A stretch of DNA of 64,000 nt, taken from Bacillus niameyensis. GTDB lineage: Bacteria > Bacillota > Bacilli > Bacillales > Bacillaceae_C. The position numbers and the translations under genes were made by a program. The notes below the pieces were generated by a model that saw only the letters and a program-made list of their open reading frames with translations, searched no databases and was not told the origin of the DNA. Of the stretch, positions 27,071-37,438 are shown one piece after another. Where the stretch lies: positions 981,752 to 1,045,751 of the forward strand of contig NZ_LN831197.1 of the NCBI RefSeq assembly GCF_001375535.1, written 5' to 3'. The stretch's first letter is position 1. Each line of letters begins with the position of its first letter.

Positions 27071-27702
27071 TTATTCGACTTTCCACACCTCTGGATTTTC
27101 GCGCCAGCTCTTTAATGTTTCTAGATCATTTTCTTCAATGATGCCTTTTTGTAAAGCGTTTTGAATCAATGTGGAATATCCAGTTAACGAATAAGCCGTT
27201 AAACCAGCCTCTTCCAGCCTCGTTTTACCTTTATCCAACTCATATGTAAAAATCGAGACAATTCCAAGGACTTCAACACCCTCAGCAAGAAGTGCTTGAG
27301 CGGCTGTTATCGCACTGCCTCCGGTAGAGATTAAATCTTCTACAACAACGACTTTTTGACCTTTAGTAACTCTTCCTTCAATTTGGTTACCTTTCCCATG
27401 GCTCTTCGCGGAAGAACGGACATAGCACATTGGCAGTTCAAGTTCGTCACTAACCCAAGCAGCATGAGGGATTCCTGCTGTTGCAGTTCCTGCAATCGCT
27501 TCTGCTTCGGAAAAGTGTTCTTTAATTATTTCCGCCAGTCCTCTTGCAATTTCTTTTCTCAATGAAGGGTAAGAAAGTGTTAAACGGTTATCACAATAAA
27601 TGGGCGATTTAATGCCTGATGACCATGTAAAGGGATCGTTCGGTTTTAAAGAAACAGCCTCAATATCTAATAGTTGTTCTGCAATTTTTTCCGCTAATGT
27701 TG

Positions 27703-27706
<4 letters not shown>
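27071..27706 (-). CDS. pyrE: Orotate phosphoribosyltransferase
   Basis: Joins orotate to PRPP to give OMP. The 211-residue protein has the PRPP-binding motif [13 protein letters not shown], the [12 protein letters not shown] segment and the catalytic-loop [15 protein letters not shown] with the conserved lysines. I chose the GTG at 27704-27706 since GGGAG lies eight bases upstream and the codon overlaps the pyrF stop codon (GTGA); an ATG five codons upstream lacks a ribosome binding site. It is the last gene of the operon. Confidence 0.96.
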
Positions 27707-30104
<2,398 letters not shown>

Positions 30105-30108
<4 letters not shown>

Positions 30109-33100
30109 GCTTGAATCGCCTCATTTCTTTCAATATTCCCTTCAGCCATTGGTTCAGCCGAGAATACCATTGATTCCAATACACCAAGGATAGCCTCTGC
30201 TGTATCCAGAGACGTTAAGCAAGCAATACCGTTTTCAACAGATTCTCTTCTAATTCTAAATCCATCCCGTTCTGGTTGTTTTCCTTTTGTTAATGTATTG
30301 ATGACAATTTGAGCTTCGCCTTTACGGATAACATCAATAAGTGTTCGACCTTCTGAACCAATTTTTCCAACGACTTCAACAGGAATTCCATCATTTGCAA
30401 TCATCTTTGCTGTTCCGCTCGTAGCAAGAATTCGATATCCGATTGATGAAAATCTTTTCGCAAGTTTGCGAGCTTCTTCTTTATCTTTATCTGCAACGGT
30501 GACTAAAACCGTTCCGTAAGTCTTAATTTCCATTCCCGAAGCAACCAATCCTTTATACAGGGCTTTTTCCATTGTCTTATCTTTGCCCATAACTTCACCA
30601 GTTGATTTCATTTCTGGTCCGAGCGTAATATCCACTCTTCTTAATTTCGCAAAGGAAAAGACCGGAACTTTGACAAACACTCCTGATTGTTCAGGGGCAA
30701 TACCTGTTTCATAGCCCAATGAAGGAAGGGTTTCACCCAAAATCACTTTCGTAGCCAAATTCGCCATTGGAATGTGAGTAATTTTGCTCAAGAAAGGAAC
30801 TGTACGACTTGACCGCGGGTTAACTTCAATGACATACAATTCATTTTGCGAGATAACATATTGAATATTAAGTAAACCGACAATTTCCAGACCGCGAGCG
30901 AGTCGGATTGTATAATCAACAATCTTTTCTTTCATTTCTGGGCTAATATTTTGAGGCGGATAGACAGCAATTGAGTCGCCAGAATGGACTCCAGCTCGTT
31001 CAATATGTTCCATAATGCCCGGGATCAAAACGTTTTCTCCGTCAGAAATAGCATCCACTTCAATTTCTTTTCCGACTAAATAGCGGTCGACTAAGACAGG
31101 ATGTTCTGGATTAATCTTCACAGCGTTTTTCATATAATGGAGCAGTTCTTTTTCTTCATACACAATCTCCATCGCTCTTCCACCAAGTACATAGGAAGGA
31201 CGAACTAAAACCGGATAACCGATTTCGGTTGCAATTTTTACCGCTTCTTCGACAGAGAAAGCCGTCTTACCTTTTGGTTGTGGAATATTTAGGATTTCTA
31301 ATGCCTGTTCAAATTTATCACGATTTTCAGCCCGATCCAAGCTTTCAAGGGAAGTTCCAAGAATCCTCACACCACGTTCCTCAAGAGCTGCAGCAAGGTT
31401 AATCGCTGTTTGTCCGCCAAATTGAACAACAACTCCTTCAGGCTGTTCCAAATCGATAATATGCATGACATCTTCAATCGTTAACGGTTCAAAGTACAAC
31501 TTATCAGAAATACTGAAATCAGTTGACACAGTTTCTGGGTTGTTATTAATGATGATCGCTTCATATCCTGCTTCTTGTATCGCCCACACACTATGAACGG
31601 TCGCATAATCAAATTCTACACCTTGGCCAATTCGAATTGGACCTGAACCAAGTACAACCACACTTTTCTTATCTGTTCTGATTGATTCATTCTCCCATTC
31701 ATACGTTCCGTAAAAATATGGTGTTTCGGCTTCAAACTCGCCAGCACATGTATCAACCTTTTTATAGACAGGTATAATTCCCTCTGCTTTACGCCACTCA
31801 TAAAGTTCTTTTTCTGTAGTATTCCACAATTTAGCAATCGTATGGTCACTGAATCCAGAAATTTTCGCTTTTCTTCCCCATTCTACGTCAAATGGATTTT
31901 TCGAGATTGTATCTTCGATTTGAATGATTTTGTTCAATTTATGGAGGAAGTATAAATCAATCTTGCTCCACTCATGAAGTTCTTCGATAGTAATTCCTTG
32001 TCGTAGTGCTTCACCGATAAAAAATAGACGTTCATCAGTTGGTCTTTCCATTTGCTTTTTAATAAATTCTCGATCAGCATTACTCTCTGGATGGTCAAGA
32101 TGGAAGATTCCAGATTCTAAGGAACGAACCGCTTTTAACAATGATTCTTCAAATGTTCTTCCAATCGCCATAACTTCACCAGTTGCCTTCATTTGTGTGC
32201 CTAAGCGACGATTAGCTGACTCGAATTTATCAAAAGGCCATCTCGGAATTTTCGTTACGATATAATCGATTGCTGGTTCAAAGCAGGCATATGTTTGGCC
32301 TGTTACGGGATTCATAATTTCATCCAATGTATATCCTGCTGCAATTTTTGCTGCTAATTTCGCGATTGGGAAACCAGTTGCTTTCGATGCAAGGGCAGAT
32401 GAGCGACTAACCCTCGGGTTAACTTCGATTATATAATATTGGAAACTATATGGATCCAAAGCTAGCTGAACATTACAACCACCTTCGATCCCTAGCGCAC
32501 GAATTAACTTTAATGAAGTATTACGCATTAATTGTAGTTCTCTGTCACTTAGTGTCTGACAAGGAGCAACGACAATCGAATCACCCGTATGGACGCCAAC
32601 AGGGTCAATATTTTCCATATTACAAATCACGATCGCATTGTCGTTTGCATCTCGCATTACTTCGTACTCAATTTCTTTATATCCAGCGATGCTTTTTTCT
32701 ACTAAGCATTGATGGACAGGACTATTTTTCAGTCCGCTCGCAACAATTTCTTTTAGCTCCTCTAAATCTTCACATATTCCTCCACCAGTCCCGCCTAAAG
32801 TATAGGCTGGTCTTACGATAATCGGATAACCAATCTTTTCAGCGAAGGAAATTGCTTCTTCAACCGTATGTATTATATCACTATCTGGAACAGGTTCATT
32901 CAGTTCATTCATCAACGCTCTAAATTGATCGCGGTCTTCAGCTTGTTCAATAGCCGAAAGTTTCGTACCAAGTATCTCTACACCACATTCTTCTAAAATA
33001 CCCGCTTTAGAGAGCTGCATTGCCATATTCAATCCAGTTTGACCGCCTAAAGTAGGTAAAATCGCATCTGGTCTTTCTTTGCGAATGATTCTTGCTACGA

Positions 33101-33317
33101 ATTCCAGTGTAATCGGCTCGATATAAACGGCATCTGCAATTTCAGTATCAGTCATGATTGTCGCCGGGTTGGAGTTAATTAAGATAACGCGGTAGCCTTC
33201 TTCTTTAAGAGCGAGACAAGCTTGCGTTCCTGCATAATCAAATTCTGCTGCCTGTCCAATGACTATTGGACCTGATCCAATGACGAGAATACTTTGAATA
33301 TCTGTTCTTTTAGGCAT
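30105..33317 (-). CDS. carB: Carbamoyl-phosphate synthase, pyrimidine-specific, large subunit
   Basis: Makes carbamoyl phosphate from bicarbonate, ammonia and two ATP. The 1070-residue protein has the expected duplicated ATP-grasp halves: one from residue 1 ([32 protein letters not shown]) and one from about residue 550 ([35 protein letters not shown]), an oligomerisation domain between them and a C-terminal MGS-like allosteric domain (about 930-1040). The core motifs appear intact. Its usual ammonia source is the small subunit encoded upstream, which here has lost key catalytic residues. Named pyrAB in B. subtilis. Confidence 0.97.
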
Positions 33318-34401
33318 GTTGTTCCACCCTTTCTTGTTGTTGGTCCATAATGTTCATAAACTGATCGAAAGCTACTTTTGCATCTTCGGATCCTGGAGAT
33401 GCTTCAGGTTCATATTGGACTGAAAAAGCTGGTAATTTTTGATGTTTGAGCCCTTCGATGGAATTCCCATTTACCGCTCGGTGTGTGATCGTCAAAGTAT
33501 TTGTATCGACCGATTTTTCACTTACTTCAAATCCATGATTTTGCGATGTGAAAATGATTTTACCTGTTGCTAAATCTTTAACAGGATAACTTGTTCCACG
33601 GTGTCCAGAATGCATTTTCTCCACTTTCGAGCCATTAGCCATGGCAAATAATTGGTGACCTAGACCAATCCCAAACAATGGAACCTCTTTTTGCACCTCT
33701 TGAATCATTTTGCAAACTTGTGCAACGTGTTCTGGGTTTCCAGGGCCATTGGAAAGCAGAATTCCATCTGGTCTTAATGTTAGAATATCTTGTGCAGATG
33801 TTGTAAACGGTACAACTGTTATATCGCATCCACGTTCTGTTAACTCTCTTAAAATACCATTCTTGAGACCAAAATCGACTACTACGACATTCTTTCCGCG
33901 TCCTGGGCTTGGAAATGGTTTTGTGCTGGAAACTTGTTTAACCTCATCCCCTGGGAAAGTAGTTGCTTGAAGTCTGTTAAGAATCGCTTCTGTTTTTTCT
34001 TCTGCACTACAAATAATCCCTTTCATCGCACCTTTTTCCCTTATCAATCTCGTCAACATTCTCGTATCAATGCCCGATATGCCCGGAATATCCTTTTGCT
34101 TCATAAATTCTTCCAATGACAAATTGGAGCGCCAATTAGAAGGGGTGTCACATGCTTCTTTAACTATTATCCCTTTAATAACAGGCTGAATGCTTTCAAA
34201 ATCATCGCGGTTAATACCATAATTGCCAATCAACGGATAACTGAAAGTGATGATTTGTCCATAATTAGAAGGGTCGGATATAATTTCTTGATAGCCACTC
34301 ATACTTGTGTTAAAGACTACTTCACCTATCGTTTCTTTTTTACTTCCGAACGCATCTCCCAAGAACACAGTTCCATCTTCTAATACAAGTTTTCGTTTCA
34401 T
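33310..34401 (-). CDS. carA: Carbamoyl-phosphate synthase, pyrimidine-specific, small subunit with degenerate glutaminase site
   Basis: Normally hydrolyses glutamine and channels ammonia to CarB; named pyrAA in B. subtilis. The 363-residue protein is full length, with an N-terminal CPSase domain (about 1-140) and a C-terminal class I glutaminase domain. The nucleophile elbow reads FGIGLGHQL instead of FGICLGHQL, so the catalytic cysteine is Gly246 (codon GGT at 33664-33666). The triad segment reads QYEPEASPG instead of QYHPEASPG, so the catalytic histidine is Glu331 (GAA at 33409-33411); Glu333 is retained. The nearby GxNHPV segment is GTSYPV. There is no frameshift. I infer loss of glutaminase activity with the structural role kept. 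The start is an ATG overlapping the pyrC stop codon. Confidence 0.95.
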
Positions 34402-35675
34402 TTCTCATCATTCCTTTCAGTCCACTGCAATTCACCATTTACAAAGGTAGCTACTGGCCAGCCTTGACAATTCCAACGAGCAAATGGTGTGTTTTTTCCT
34501 TTTGAAGCAAATTTAGCTGGATCAATTTCTTTTTCCTGATTGAGGTCAAGTAAAGTGATGTCGGCTATTTTTCCAACTTCCAAAGTCCCGCTTTCCAATC
34601 CAAAAGTTTGAGCAGGTTTTAGTGTCAACCAATGAATAAGTTCCTCTAAGCTGAATATTCCTTTTTGGACAAAATGCGTATACAGAAGTGGAAAAGCTGT
34701 TTCTAAACCGACAATTCCGAAAGGCGCTTTTTCCATTCCTCTTGCTTTTTCTTCTATGGCGTGTGGTGCGTGATCTGTTGCGATAAAATCAATCGTTCCA
34801 TCAAGAAGACCCTCGATTAGCGCTTCACGATCAGCTTTCCCTCGTAATGGGGGATTCATTTTAAAGTTAGTGTCAGCACCTGGAATATCATCTTCACTAA
34901 GCAGTAAATGATGCGGAGATACTTCAGCCGTCACACGAATTCCCGCCCTTTTCGCATCTCTCACTGTCCGGACAGACTCTTTCGTACTAATATGGCAAAC
35001 ATGATAATGGCAATTTGTTGCTTCTGCTAAAAGCACGTCTCTTGCAATCTGAACAGATTCACAGATAGAAGGAATTCCCGGAATCCCGGATTTTTTAGAA
35101 AACTCTCCATCATGAACAGCTCCTCCATATATAAGCGAATTATCCTCACAATGAGCAACAATCGCCATATCAAGCGCGGCTGCTTGTTTCATTGCTTCAT
35201 GCATCATCCCAGCTTCTTGAATTCCAACCCCATCATCGGTGAATGCAAAAGCTCCTGCTTGTTTTAGTGCCGCAAAATCGACTAGCTCCTCGCCCTTTTG
35301 CTTTACCGTAATCGATGCATACGGTAAAACATGGGCATTTCCTCTTGTTTTACATTCATTAACAAGCCAGCTCATTTGTTCAGCATTATCTGGAACTGGG
35401 TTTGTATTTGGCATTGCAGCAACCGTCGTAAAGCCGCCTCTTACAGCTGCAAGTGTACCCGTTTCAATCGTTTCTTTATGTTCTCCTCCGGGTTCACGTA
35501 AGTGGATATGTAAGTCGATGAAACCTGGTGAAATGACCAATCCAGTTGCATCGAATTCTTTTTCACCATGTTCGATAAGATCATTGCCTATTTCAGTAAT
35601 TTTCCCATCATTTATTCTTACATCTATTGTTTTAGTTGCATCTACTAGACTTGCATTTTTGATTAACCAGTTCAT
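34398..35675 (-). CDS. pyrC: Dihydroorotase
   Basis: Cyclises carbamoyl aspartate to dihydroorotate. The 425-residue amidohydrolase has the zinc ligands in [10 protein letters not shown], the HCED and CHISTKES segments, and the catalytic aspartate in [10 protein letters not shown]. It is the class I type typical of Bacillus. It begins one base after pyrB ends and overlaps carA by four bases. Confidence 0.97.
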
Positions 35676-35676
35676 A

Positions 35677-36573
35677 TTAGTTACCCTCCTGTAATTCTAG
35701 TAATTTCCTTAAAACAGCCATTCGTACATAGACCCCATTTTCCATTTGTTTAAAAATTCTTGATCGCTCACATTCTACGAGCTGATCCGCTATTTCCACA
35801 TTGCGGTTAACTGGAGCAGGGTGCATGATAATACCGCTTTGCTTCATTCTCTTTTCACGCTCTACCGTTAAGCCATATTCTTGATGATACTGTTCGGCCG
35901 TAATCGCGGTAAGGCTTAAATGCCGCTCATGTTGGATTCTCAAGAGCATCAATACATCAACAGAATCGATGATCTCGTCAATTTGAAAATTGCGCTTAGC
36001 CTGTTCCTGATCATTTAAAAACCATTCAGAAGGTCCGGAAAAGATGACGTCAGCACCTAGAGCAGTAAGTGCGTCTATATTAGATTTGGCAACCCGGCTA
36101 TGATTTAAGTCCCCAACAATGGCTACTTTCAAGCCGTTAAATGTTCCAAATTCCTGCTTGATTGTAAAAAGGTCGAGCAAACATTGAGTTGGATGTTGAC
36201 CACAGCCATCGCCGCCATTAACAATGGGTATATTTATTTTGTCAATTAATTCATTATAGTACGCCTCTTGTTCATGACGAATGACGGCAATATTCACTCC
36301 GATTGATTCCAAAGTTTTAACTGTGTCATAGAGTGTTTCACCTTTAAGCGTGCTCGAGAAACCAGCTTCAAAAGGAATCACATCCAGGCCAATTTTCCGC
36401 TCTGCCATTTCGAAACTGGATTTCGTTCTTGTACTTGGTTCGAAAAAAAGATTCGCGGCAAAAGTTCTTTTAGTAGGAGACCACTCATCACCTTTGGAAA
36501 ATGATTCCGCCAGATGCAGTATTTCCATTATTTCATCTGTTGTTAATTGATTCATTGACAATAGATGTTTCAT
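35677..36573 (-). CDS. pyrB: Aspartate carbamoyltransferase catalytic subunit
   Basis: Condenses carbamoyl phosphate with aspartate, the committed pyrimidine step. The 298-residue protein has the carbamoyl-phosphate motif [13 protein letters not shown], the HPTQCLLDL segment and [12 protein letters not shown]. No regulatory subunit gene is present, as usual in Bacillus. It follows the second PyrR attenuator and is directly downstream of pyrR, with no pyrP between. Confidence 0.97.
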
Positions 36574-36640: not shown

Positions 36641-36755
36641 AAAAAATACCCTCTTCGTCCGTTTCGTGACAAAGAGGGTACTAAAAATAAGCAGCTAGAG
36701 ACAGCTTCCTATTTACCTCCCTTTGCCAGTCTCACAGGACTGTCTTTAAAAGGGA
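36641..36755 (-). promoter_or_regulatory. PyrR attenuator in the pyrR-pyrB gap
   Basis: On the minus strand an anti-antiterminator hairpin (36720-36755, arms CCCTTT/AAAGGG) displays the PyrR-binding loop AGTCCTGTGAGACT (36729-36742). A terminator follows, with stem TACCCTCTT / AAGAGGGTA and a run of seven T residues (36641-36681). With UMP bound, PyrR would stabilise the first hairpin and cause termination before pyrB. Confidence 0.88.
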
Positions 36756-36760
36756 ATATT

Positions 36761-37303
<543 letters not shown>

Positions 37304-37323
37304 TCACCTCTTTTGAAGAAATG

Positions 37324-37409
37324 AAAAACCCTCACACCGAAAGGCATGAGGGTATACGAATCCAAAATCTCAAAACTGGTTTTGTATCCCTTCATAGCCT
37401 CACAGGACT
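37324..37409 (-). promoter_or_regulatory. PyrR attenuator in the pyr operon leader
   Basis: The minus-strand loop AGTCCTGTGAGGCT (37396-37409) matches the PyrR-binding consensus ARUCCNGNGAGGYU exactly. Downstream is a terminator ACCCTCA ... TGAGGGT followed by T residues (37324-37353), 27 bases before the pyrR start. Confidence 0.92.
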
Positions 37410-37438
37410 AAATTAAAGGTTCATATGTAACTACAAAT

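Follow-up and report, generated by a model that had tools for sequence, protein, structure and literature searches.

The window, that is, the whole 64,000-nucleotide stretch of DNA that was analysed, contains a pyrimidine operon with the gene order pyrR-pyrB-pyrC-carA-carB-pyrK-pyrD-pyrF-pyrE, in which the names other than carA and carB were assigned by eye. The operon is undisturbed, as an earlier note on this DNA had described it, and carA has an 8-base overlap with carB and a 4-base overlap with pyrC. Its features are the following.

27071..30108, minus strand: pyrK, pyrD, pyrF and pyrE, downstream genes of the operon, named by eye
30105..33317, minus strand: carB (pyrAB), large subunit of carbamoyl-phosphate synthase (CPS), with the tested catalytic and tunnel residues conserved
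33310..34401, minus strand: carA (pyrAA), CPS small subunit, with CPSase and GATase domains intact and the glutaminase triad lost
33388..33390, minus strand: codon of Ser338, corresponding to Pro360 of E. coli CarA
33409..33411, minus strand: GAA, coding for Glu331 at the position of the catalytic His353 of E. coli (translation and alignment)
33586..33594, minus strand: codons of Thr270-Ser271-Tyr272, corresponding to Gly293-Asn294-His295 of E. coli, at the ammonia tunnel
33664..33666, minus strand: GGT, coding for Gly246 at the position of the nucleophile Cys269 of E. coli CarA (translation and alignment)
34398..35675, minus strand: pyrC, named by eye
35677..36573, minus strand: pyrB, named by eye
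36641..36757, minus strand: predicted PyrR binding site (Rfam RF00515, 68.6 bits, cut-off 54)
36761..37297, minus strand: pyrR, named by eye
37320..37423, minus strand: predicted PyrR binding site (Rfam RF00515, 55 bits, barely above the cut-off of 54)

The product of carA, PyrAA, retains its domains and lacks two residues of the glutaminase triad. The open reading frame at 33310-34401 is translated without interruption into 363 amino acids, and the N-terminal CPSase domain is normal, with a CPSase_sm_chain match far over the cut-off (186.8 bits, cut-off 27); both points agree with the earlier description. The class-I GATase domain scores 149 bits (cut-off 22.8). The replacements of cysteine by Gly246 and of histidine by Glu331 lie at exactly the codons reported before, and Glu333 is still present and the GxNHPV segment has become GTSYPV, also as reported. 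The protein thus lacks the nucleophile and the catalytic histidine that define glutamine-hydrolysing CPS (CPS II) and has the catalytic glutamate. The missing cysteine is a mark of ammonia-using CPS (CPS I), and the single fused polypeptide of that type is absent, since carA and carB are separate genes. As expected of a CPS small subunit, a CarB partner is encoded beside it.

Fold prediction and protein family models still place PyrAA with CarA. The top structural match of its AlphaFold model (mean pLDDT 72.8) is E. coli CarA, with a TM score of 0.63; the pLDDT is below 50 at residues 32-46, 55-71, 87-91, 151-168, 334-338 and 360-363, and the model is too weak for a reading of the pocket. The NCBIfam model TIGR01368, named "glutamine-hydrolyzing", accepts the protein despite the lost triad (440.7 bits, cut-off 307.35), and the neutrally named NF009475 gives it a higher score (474.3 bits, cut-off 221).

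CarA in the window genome and its clade

The second CarA of the window genome has also lost the cysteine. It is encoded in an operon read by eye as argC-J-B-D-carA-carB-argF, and it has the motif GFGLGHQ, a retained histidine and an aspartate in place of the glutamate. Its score with TIGR01368 is below the cut-off (241.6 bits), and it passes NF009475 (252 bits against 221). No third or intact CarA was found in the window genome, which has two CPSase_sm_chain matches, both Cys-less. The earlier note had suggested looking for a second carA with cysteine and histidine, and its idea of a different CarA serving CarB does not hold for the genome as assembled, in which the only other CarA is the Cys-less one of the arg operon. 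The assembly contains N stretches that could in principle hide a CarA; 12 congeners likewise have no intact CarA. Judged from these residues, neither CPS small subunit of the window genome can hydrolyse glutamine by the known mechanism.

Other glutaminases of the genome are intact. All other PF00117 matches keep the cysteine, and TrpG/PabA, GuaA and PyrG keep both the cysteine and the HPE motif, so there has been no general loss of glutaminases. HisH was not recognised by eye among the nine class-I GATase matches of the window genome, and the same model finds the HisH on the nitrogen island of a related genome (G014, see below); histidine synthesis may be absent or may also be based on ammonia. 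Glutamine-analogue antibiotics attack this catalytic cysteine, and its loss from both paralogues removes the target atom. Nevertheless, evasion of such antibiotics is an extremely improbable cause, as the cysteines of TrpG/PabA, GuaA and PyrG in the same genome are still in place and the loss tracks nitrogen-assimilation genes instead.

Three side observations concern these genes. The gene pyrG is partly doubled (L185, L186) by an exact repeat of 1473 bases beside N stretches, which is perhaps an assembly artefact. A LAGLIDADG-type open reading frame lies near the arg operon (L141:3920-4699), and one that looks similar by eye lies near the arg operon of another genome, G024 (L131:11421-11969). 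The MGS-like allosteric domain PF02142 is present in the pyr CarB and has no match at an E-value of 1e-5 in the arg CarB (L141:6820-9930).

The loss of the cysteine is common to the whole clade. The genus of the window (g1, read as Lederbergia) was sampled with 16 genomes and the whole family with 34. Glycine replaces the cysteine in every PyrAA sequence read from g1 (16/16), from g6, read as Siminovitchia (6/6), and from g3, one further genus with a single genome, G017 (1/1), or 23/23 in total. Cysteine and histidine are kept in all seven PyrAA sequences read from the genera g2, g4, g5 and g7 (11 genomes), and the best 80 of 436 named relatives divide into 11 Cys-less (L047-L057) and 69 intact ones. 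This is the comparison with relatives that the earlier note had wanted. Because the same residue is found at the same place in three genera, a sequencing error is ruled out as the source of Gly246, as had been argued from the window alone.

Further positions of PyrAA have changed together with the nucleophile. The residue at the histidine position of the 23 Cys-less sequences is Glu in 14, Gln in six, His in two and Asn in one, and the two remaining histidines suggest that the cysteine was lost first. All 23 have kept the triad glutamate, and all have Ser-Tyr at E. coli positions 294/295, where E. coli has Asn-His beside the tunnel residue Gly293. The position of E. coli Pro360 is Ser in 22 and Ala in one, compared with Pro in 18 of 18 intact CarAs of the tree set. 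Mutation of Pro360 together with its neighbours is said to have perforated the tunnel wall in E. coli.

The CarAs of the arg operons have followed the same course. Glycine replaces the cysteine in 22 of 22 arg-type sequences read (15 of the 16 g1 genomes, 6/6 in g6 and 1/1 in g3; none was found in the g1 genome G005), bringing the count for both types to 45 of 45. The Gly293 position is Phe in 21 of the 22, and Ser47 of E. coli is conserved in none of them. The change is therefore wider than the single gene first described, involving both paralogues and whole genera, alongside the absence of AmtB and GOGAT described below.

The conserved residues bear on two alternatives. One is that a non-canonical residue stands in for the cysteine and glutamine is still hydrolysed. 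The triad glutamate of PyrAA, the largely preserved pocket, and new fixed serines at 271, 327 and (in 22 of 23) 338 are consistent with this, but it is highly improbable given that the elbow residue is Gly in all clade CarAs, that the histidine is gone from 21 of 23 PyrAA and that Ser271 does not occur in the arg paralogue (0/22). The other is that glutamine still occupies the pocket, which would act as a regulatory sensor adjusting a CPS that runs on ammonia; this would add to ammonia use rather than replace it. The positions of E. coli K202, G241, G243, Q273, N311 and E355 are kept in 23/23 Cys-less PyrAA and S47 in 21, and some of these residues contact glutamine; several replacements are also fixed clade-wide. 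A conserved ligand site is hard to square with the lost Ser47 and the Phe at 293 in the arg paralogue, and a sensor role is unlikely.

Nitrogen-assimilation genes and the island

The Cys-less genomes lack genes for nitrogen assimilation that their relatives possess. Only Cys-less CarA is found in 20 of the 23 clade genomes, including that of the window, and in the remaining three, all Lederbergia (G005, G013 and G014), an additional, intact CarA is encoded next to a CarB. AmtB is present in none of these 20 and in 13 of the other 14 family genomes, and GOGAT is present in one of the 20 and in 14 of the 14, counts that lie within one family and so reflect few evolutionary events. The two exceptions, G022 (intact CarA without AmtB) and G028 (GOGAT without intact CarA), were counted against the use of ammonia; a 53-amino-acid GOGAT remnant in G009 was scored as absent. 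The other 14 consist of G005, G013, G014 and the 11 genomes of g2, g4, g5 and g7; intact CarA was read in 11 of them and assumed for G029, G030 and G032 from their genus and from zero matches of the Cys-less pattern.

Several other candidate factors were set aside. Loss of glutamine synthetase is ruled out, as the enzyme is found in 34 of 34 family genomes. Urease as a shared ammonia source is unsupported, since its distribution does not track the loss of the cysteine (strong matches in 10 of the 20 genomes and in 5 of the 14 others), and the window genome has no urease match above the cut-off. One report lists two Lederbergia strains among urease-positive isolates from an ammonium-containing medium (PMC10300444). 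Alkaliphily as a cause was dropped once the clade was read as Lederbergia and Siminovitchia.

An island carries the nitrogen-assimilation genes of the three exceptional Lederbergia. It includes gltB, glnA and amtB in all three and carAB as well in two of them (G013 and G014). The order in G014 is araC-gltB-gltD-aminotransferase-dapF-glnA-asnB-amtB-DUF294-exonuclease-carA-carB, with a hisH/hisF-like pair. G013 has a similar island without asnB and in a slightly different order, and G005 has the same set minus carAB, its extra carAB being on another contig. Parts of the island occur elsewhere: G028 has araC, gltB, gltD, aminotransferase, dapF, glnA and hisHF-like genes, and G009 has araC, a gltB stump adjoining the end of glnA, and hisFH-like genes. 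The flanks in G009 resemble by eye those in G013, which indicates that the island can be lost in place.

The island is also found in G130 and G256, genomes from different genera of f22, another family of the order. The genes gltBD, dapF, glnA, asnB (except in G013), amtB and DUF294 are common to G014, G013, G005, G130 and G256 (L211-L216, L209-L210, L219), and an island carA is present in four of these five genomes and an island carB in two. G130 and G256 share 17.1 kb at 99.8% identity, and transposase open reading frames lie nearby in G130. In a quick tree the island GltBs (six rows) cluster together, separate from those of 11 genomes of the other genera (100%). The extra carAs of G005 and G014 belong together (99%), and the G013 copy pairs with the island carA of G130 (88%, not starred). 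This split suggests that recruitment of intact CPS genes may have happened on more than one occasion.

These extra genes raise the possibility that a different glutaminase subunit supplies CarB in trans and that the operon CarA is a placeholder. In G130 and G256 an intact orphan carA without carB adjoins amtB, and operon CarAs of these genomes read as dead (pyr and arg in G130, arg in G256); the intact carAB copies of G005, G013 and G014 can be viewed in the same way. However, with no third CarA found in the window genome and most of the clade having Cys-less forms only, this arrangement is very unlikely.

Constraint on the small and large subunits

Purifying selection of ordinary strength acts on the dead glutaminase domain of PyrAA. 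For the GATase domain, seven pairs of Cys-less PyrAA give dN/dS values of 0.03-0.12 (dS above 1 in four of them), and two intact pairs give 0.05-0.07. The arg CarA is under looser constraint, with a dN/dS of about 0.2 (two pairs).

The changes in PyrAA exceed the background of the operon. Positions were counted at which a residue conserved in at least 97% of the 69 intact relatives has given way to another in 90% or more of 12 Cys-less sequences. PyrAA has 19 such replacements among 179 conserved positions (10.6%), compared with 0.5 to 3.6% for the neighbouring genes pyrB, pyrC, carB, pyrK, pyrD and pyrR. Among the 19 are the nucleophile, the histidine, the Asn-His pair by Gly293 and Pro360. 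When independent pairs were compared, loss of the cysteine was accompanied by changes at 331, 338, 272 and 271 mostly in the expected direction, in five pairs, a number with which p<0.05 is unreachable.

CarB has remained nearly unchanged at the positions that matter for synthesis. Seventeen positions with catalytic or tunnel roles were checked, and 16 of them are identical in 12/12 Cys-less and 68/68 intact relatives. The replacement of 14 of 646 conserved carB positions in the clade was counted against the use of ammonia, although only one of these is a checked tunnel-region position. It is position 253, with Cys in the 12 Cys-less sequences and Ser in the 68 intact ones, two residues from Ala251, a gate residue.

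This constraint argues against both CPSs being relics in cells that take up uracil and arginine or obtain carbamoyl phosphate from carbamate kinase or citrulline. Such an alternative route to carbamoyl phosphate is described for an archaeon (PMC13260591), and the faster evolution of the arg CarA would fit with relaxed function. The complete operons, conserved catalytic residues of CarB, predicted PyrR sites, low dN/dS of PyrAA and clade-wide conservation point the other way, and there is very little likelihood that the enzymes are relics.

Predicted ammonia use, and Cys-less CarAs in other lineages

Both CPSs probably make carbamoyl phosphate from free ammonia, in cells that have abandoned the assimilation of nitrogen at low ammonia. 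The evidence is the loss of the triad, the Cys-less arg paralogue, the conservation of CarB, the purifying selection on PyrAA and the joint absence of AmtB and GOGAT. Three options had been offered in the earlier note, and from the comparison of sequences free ammonia is the best supported; a purely structural or regulatory role of CarA, the third option, is compatible with it. PyrAA would be a pseudo-glutaminase that retains its fold and its position next to CarB and forms no glutamyl thioester. Carbamoyl phosphate for pyrimidines would be made from free ammonia, and that for arginine in parallel by the CPS with the Cys-less arg-operon CarA. Ammonia would reach the carboxyphosphate site of CarB without the glutaminase as its source, at a cytoplasmic concentration that is presumably high enough in cells living on ammonia or organic nitrogen. 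An alternative entry path for ammonia may be reflected in the pocket and tunnel changes, namely Ser-Tyr at 294/295 and Ser at 360 in PyrAA and Phe at 293 in the arg CarA.

The predicted enzyme shares features with several known systems. It resembles bacterial CPS II (CarAB/PyrAA-PyrAB, EC 6.3.5.5) in its domains, its operon and the catalytic residues of CarB, but the window PyrAA has neither the nucleophile nor the histidine. E. coli CarA mutants in which Cys269 was changed to Gly and Ser were reportedly made by Rubino in 1986, with the ammonia route remaining. The cysteine is likewise removed here, but the loss is natural and clade-wide, affects both paralogues and is accompanied by further fixed changes. 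Vertebrate CPS I (mitochondrial, EC 6.3.4.16), which in human is the ammonia-using enzyme of the urea cycle, has also kept an ancestral glutaminase domain that is inactive by loss of the cysteine (Ser294 in human). In addition, a larger residue stands at the tunnel position of Gly293 in both: human CPS1 has a tunnel-blocking Gln318 there (PMC4655335), and the arg CarA has Phe. In contrast to CPS I, there are two separate subunits in pyr and arg operons, the cysteine is replaced by glycine, and the histidine of PyrAA is mostly lost. CPS III of Alcolapia fish shows a convergent shift from glutamine to ammonia, but its triad is kept and one glutamine-binding residue is changed (PMC7657897). The comparison fits an enzyme that would work like CPS I without being CPS I by architecture, and that should not be classed as a glutamine-hydrolysing CPS. 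A review holds that E. coli CPS favours glutamine as its nitrogen donor and that this donor is the one of physiological relevance, and extends the statement to all bacterial CPSs (PMC6245113). No description of a Cys-less bacterial CarA was found among the titles and abstract openings of the literature matches listed, with subscription papers mostly outside the search.

Cys-less CarAs are found in other lineages. A scan of 397 genomes of the order for the Cys-less pattern matched 11, nine from g1 and two from f22. Within f22, both operon CarAs of G130 (pyr and arg) are dead alongside its intact island carA, the arg CarA of G097 is Cys-less, and that of G256 has Ser in place of the cysteine. 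The PyrAA of G130 has the same combination of Gly, Ser-Tyr and Ser338, yet its place in the tree is among intact relatives (94% and 100%), and by this placement the loss in f22 is independent. A scan of 398 genomes of the phylum with the same pattern matched 15, of which 14 are outside the clade and f22, in five distant families of the Bacillota. These 14 (L222-L235) are all CarA with Gly, 13 have lost the histidine, and carB is adjacent in 13. Family f66 has Asp at the histidine position in 9/9 sequences read and the order pyrC-carA-carB (pyrC by eye). The counts from both scans are lower bounds, since the pattern is blind to Cys, Tyr, Phe, Trp and TCN-Ser codons and caught both copies in only three of the nine matched g1 genomes. 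A CarA tree of 81 rows from a quick search requires at least six state changes, with a long-branch warning for L222, L223 and L224.

A broader proposal is tentative and, on balance, rather doubtful. Ammonia-only CPS might be a recurrent bacterial state tied to the loss of GOGAT and Amt, and a portable island (gltBD, glnA, asnB, amtB and an intact carA with or without carB) might restore the use of glutamine. The CarA encoded by the carA-only islands of G130 and G256 might then trade places with the inactive operon CarA on one and the same CarB, and through this exchange of subunits the CPS could switch between ammonia and glutamine.

If ammonia use is correct, whole genera build their pyrimidines and arginine from free ammonia, although a curated "glutamine-hydrolyzing" model accepts the window PyrAA. 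These lineages would be repeated natural experiments on ammonia tunnels and on how the chemistry of CPS II turns into that of CPS I, and some sister species have a glutamine-type CPS once more. An ammonium requirement for growth would then be predicted in cultured strains.
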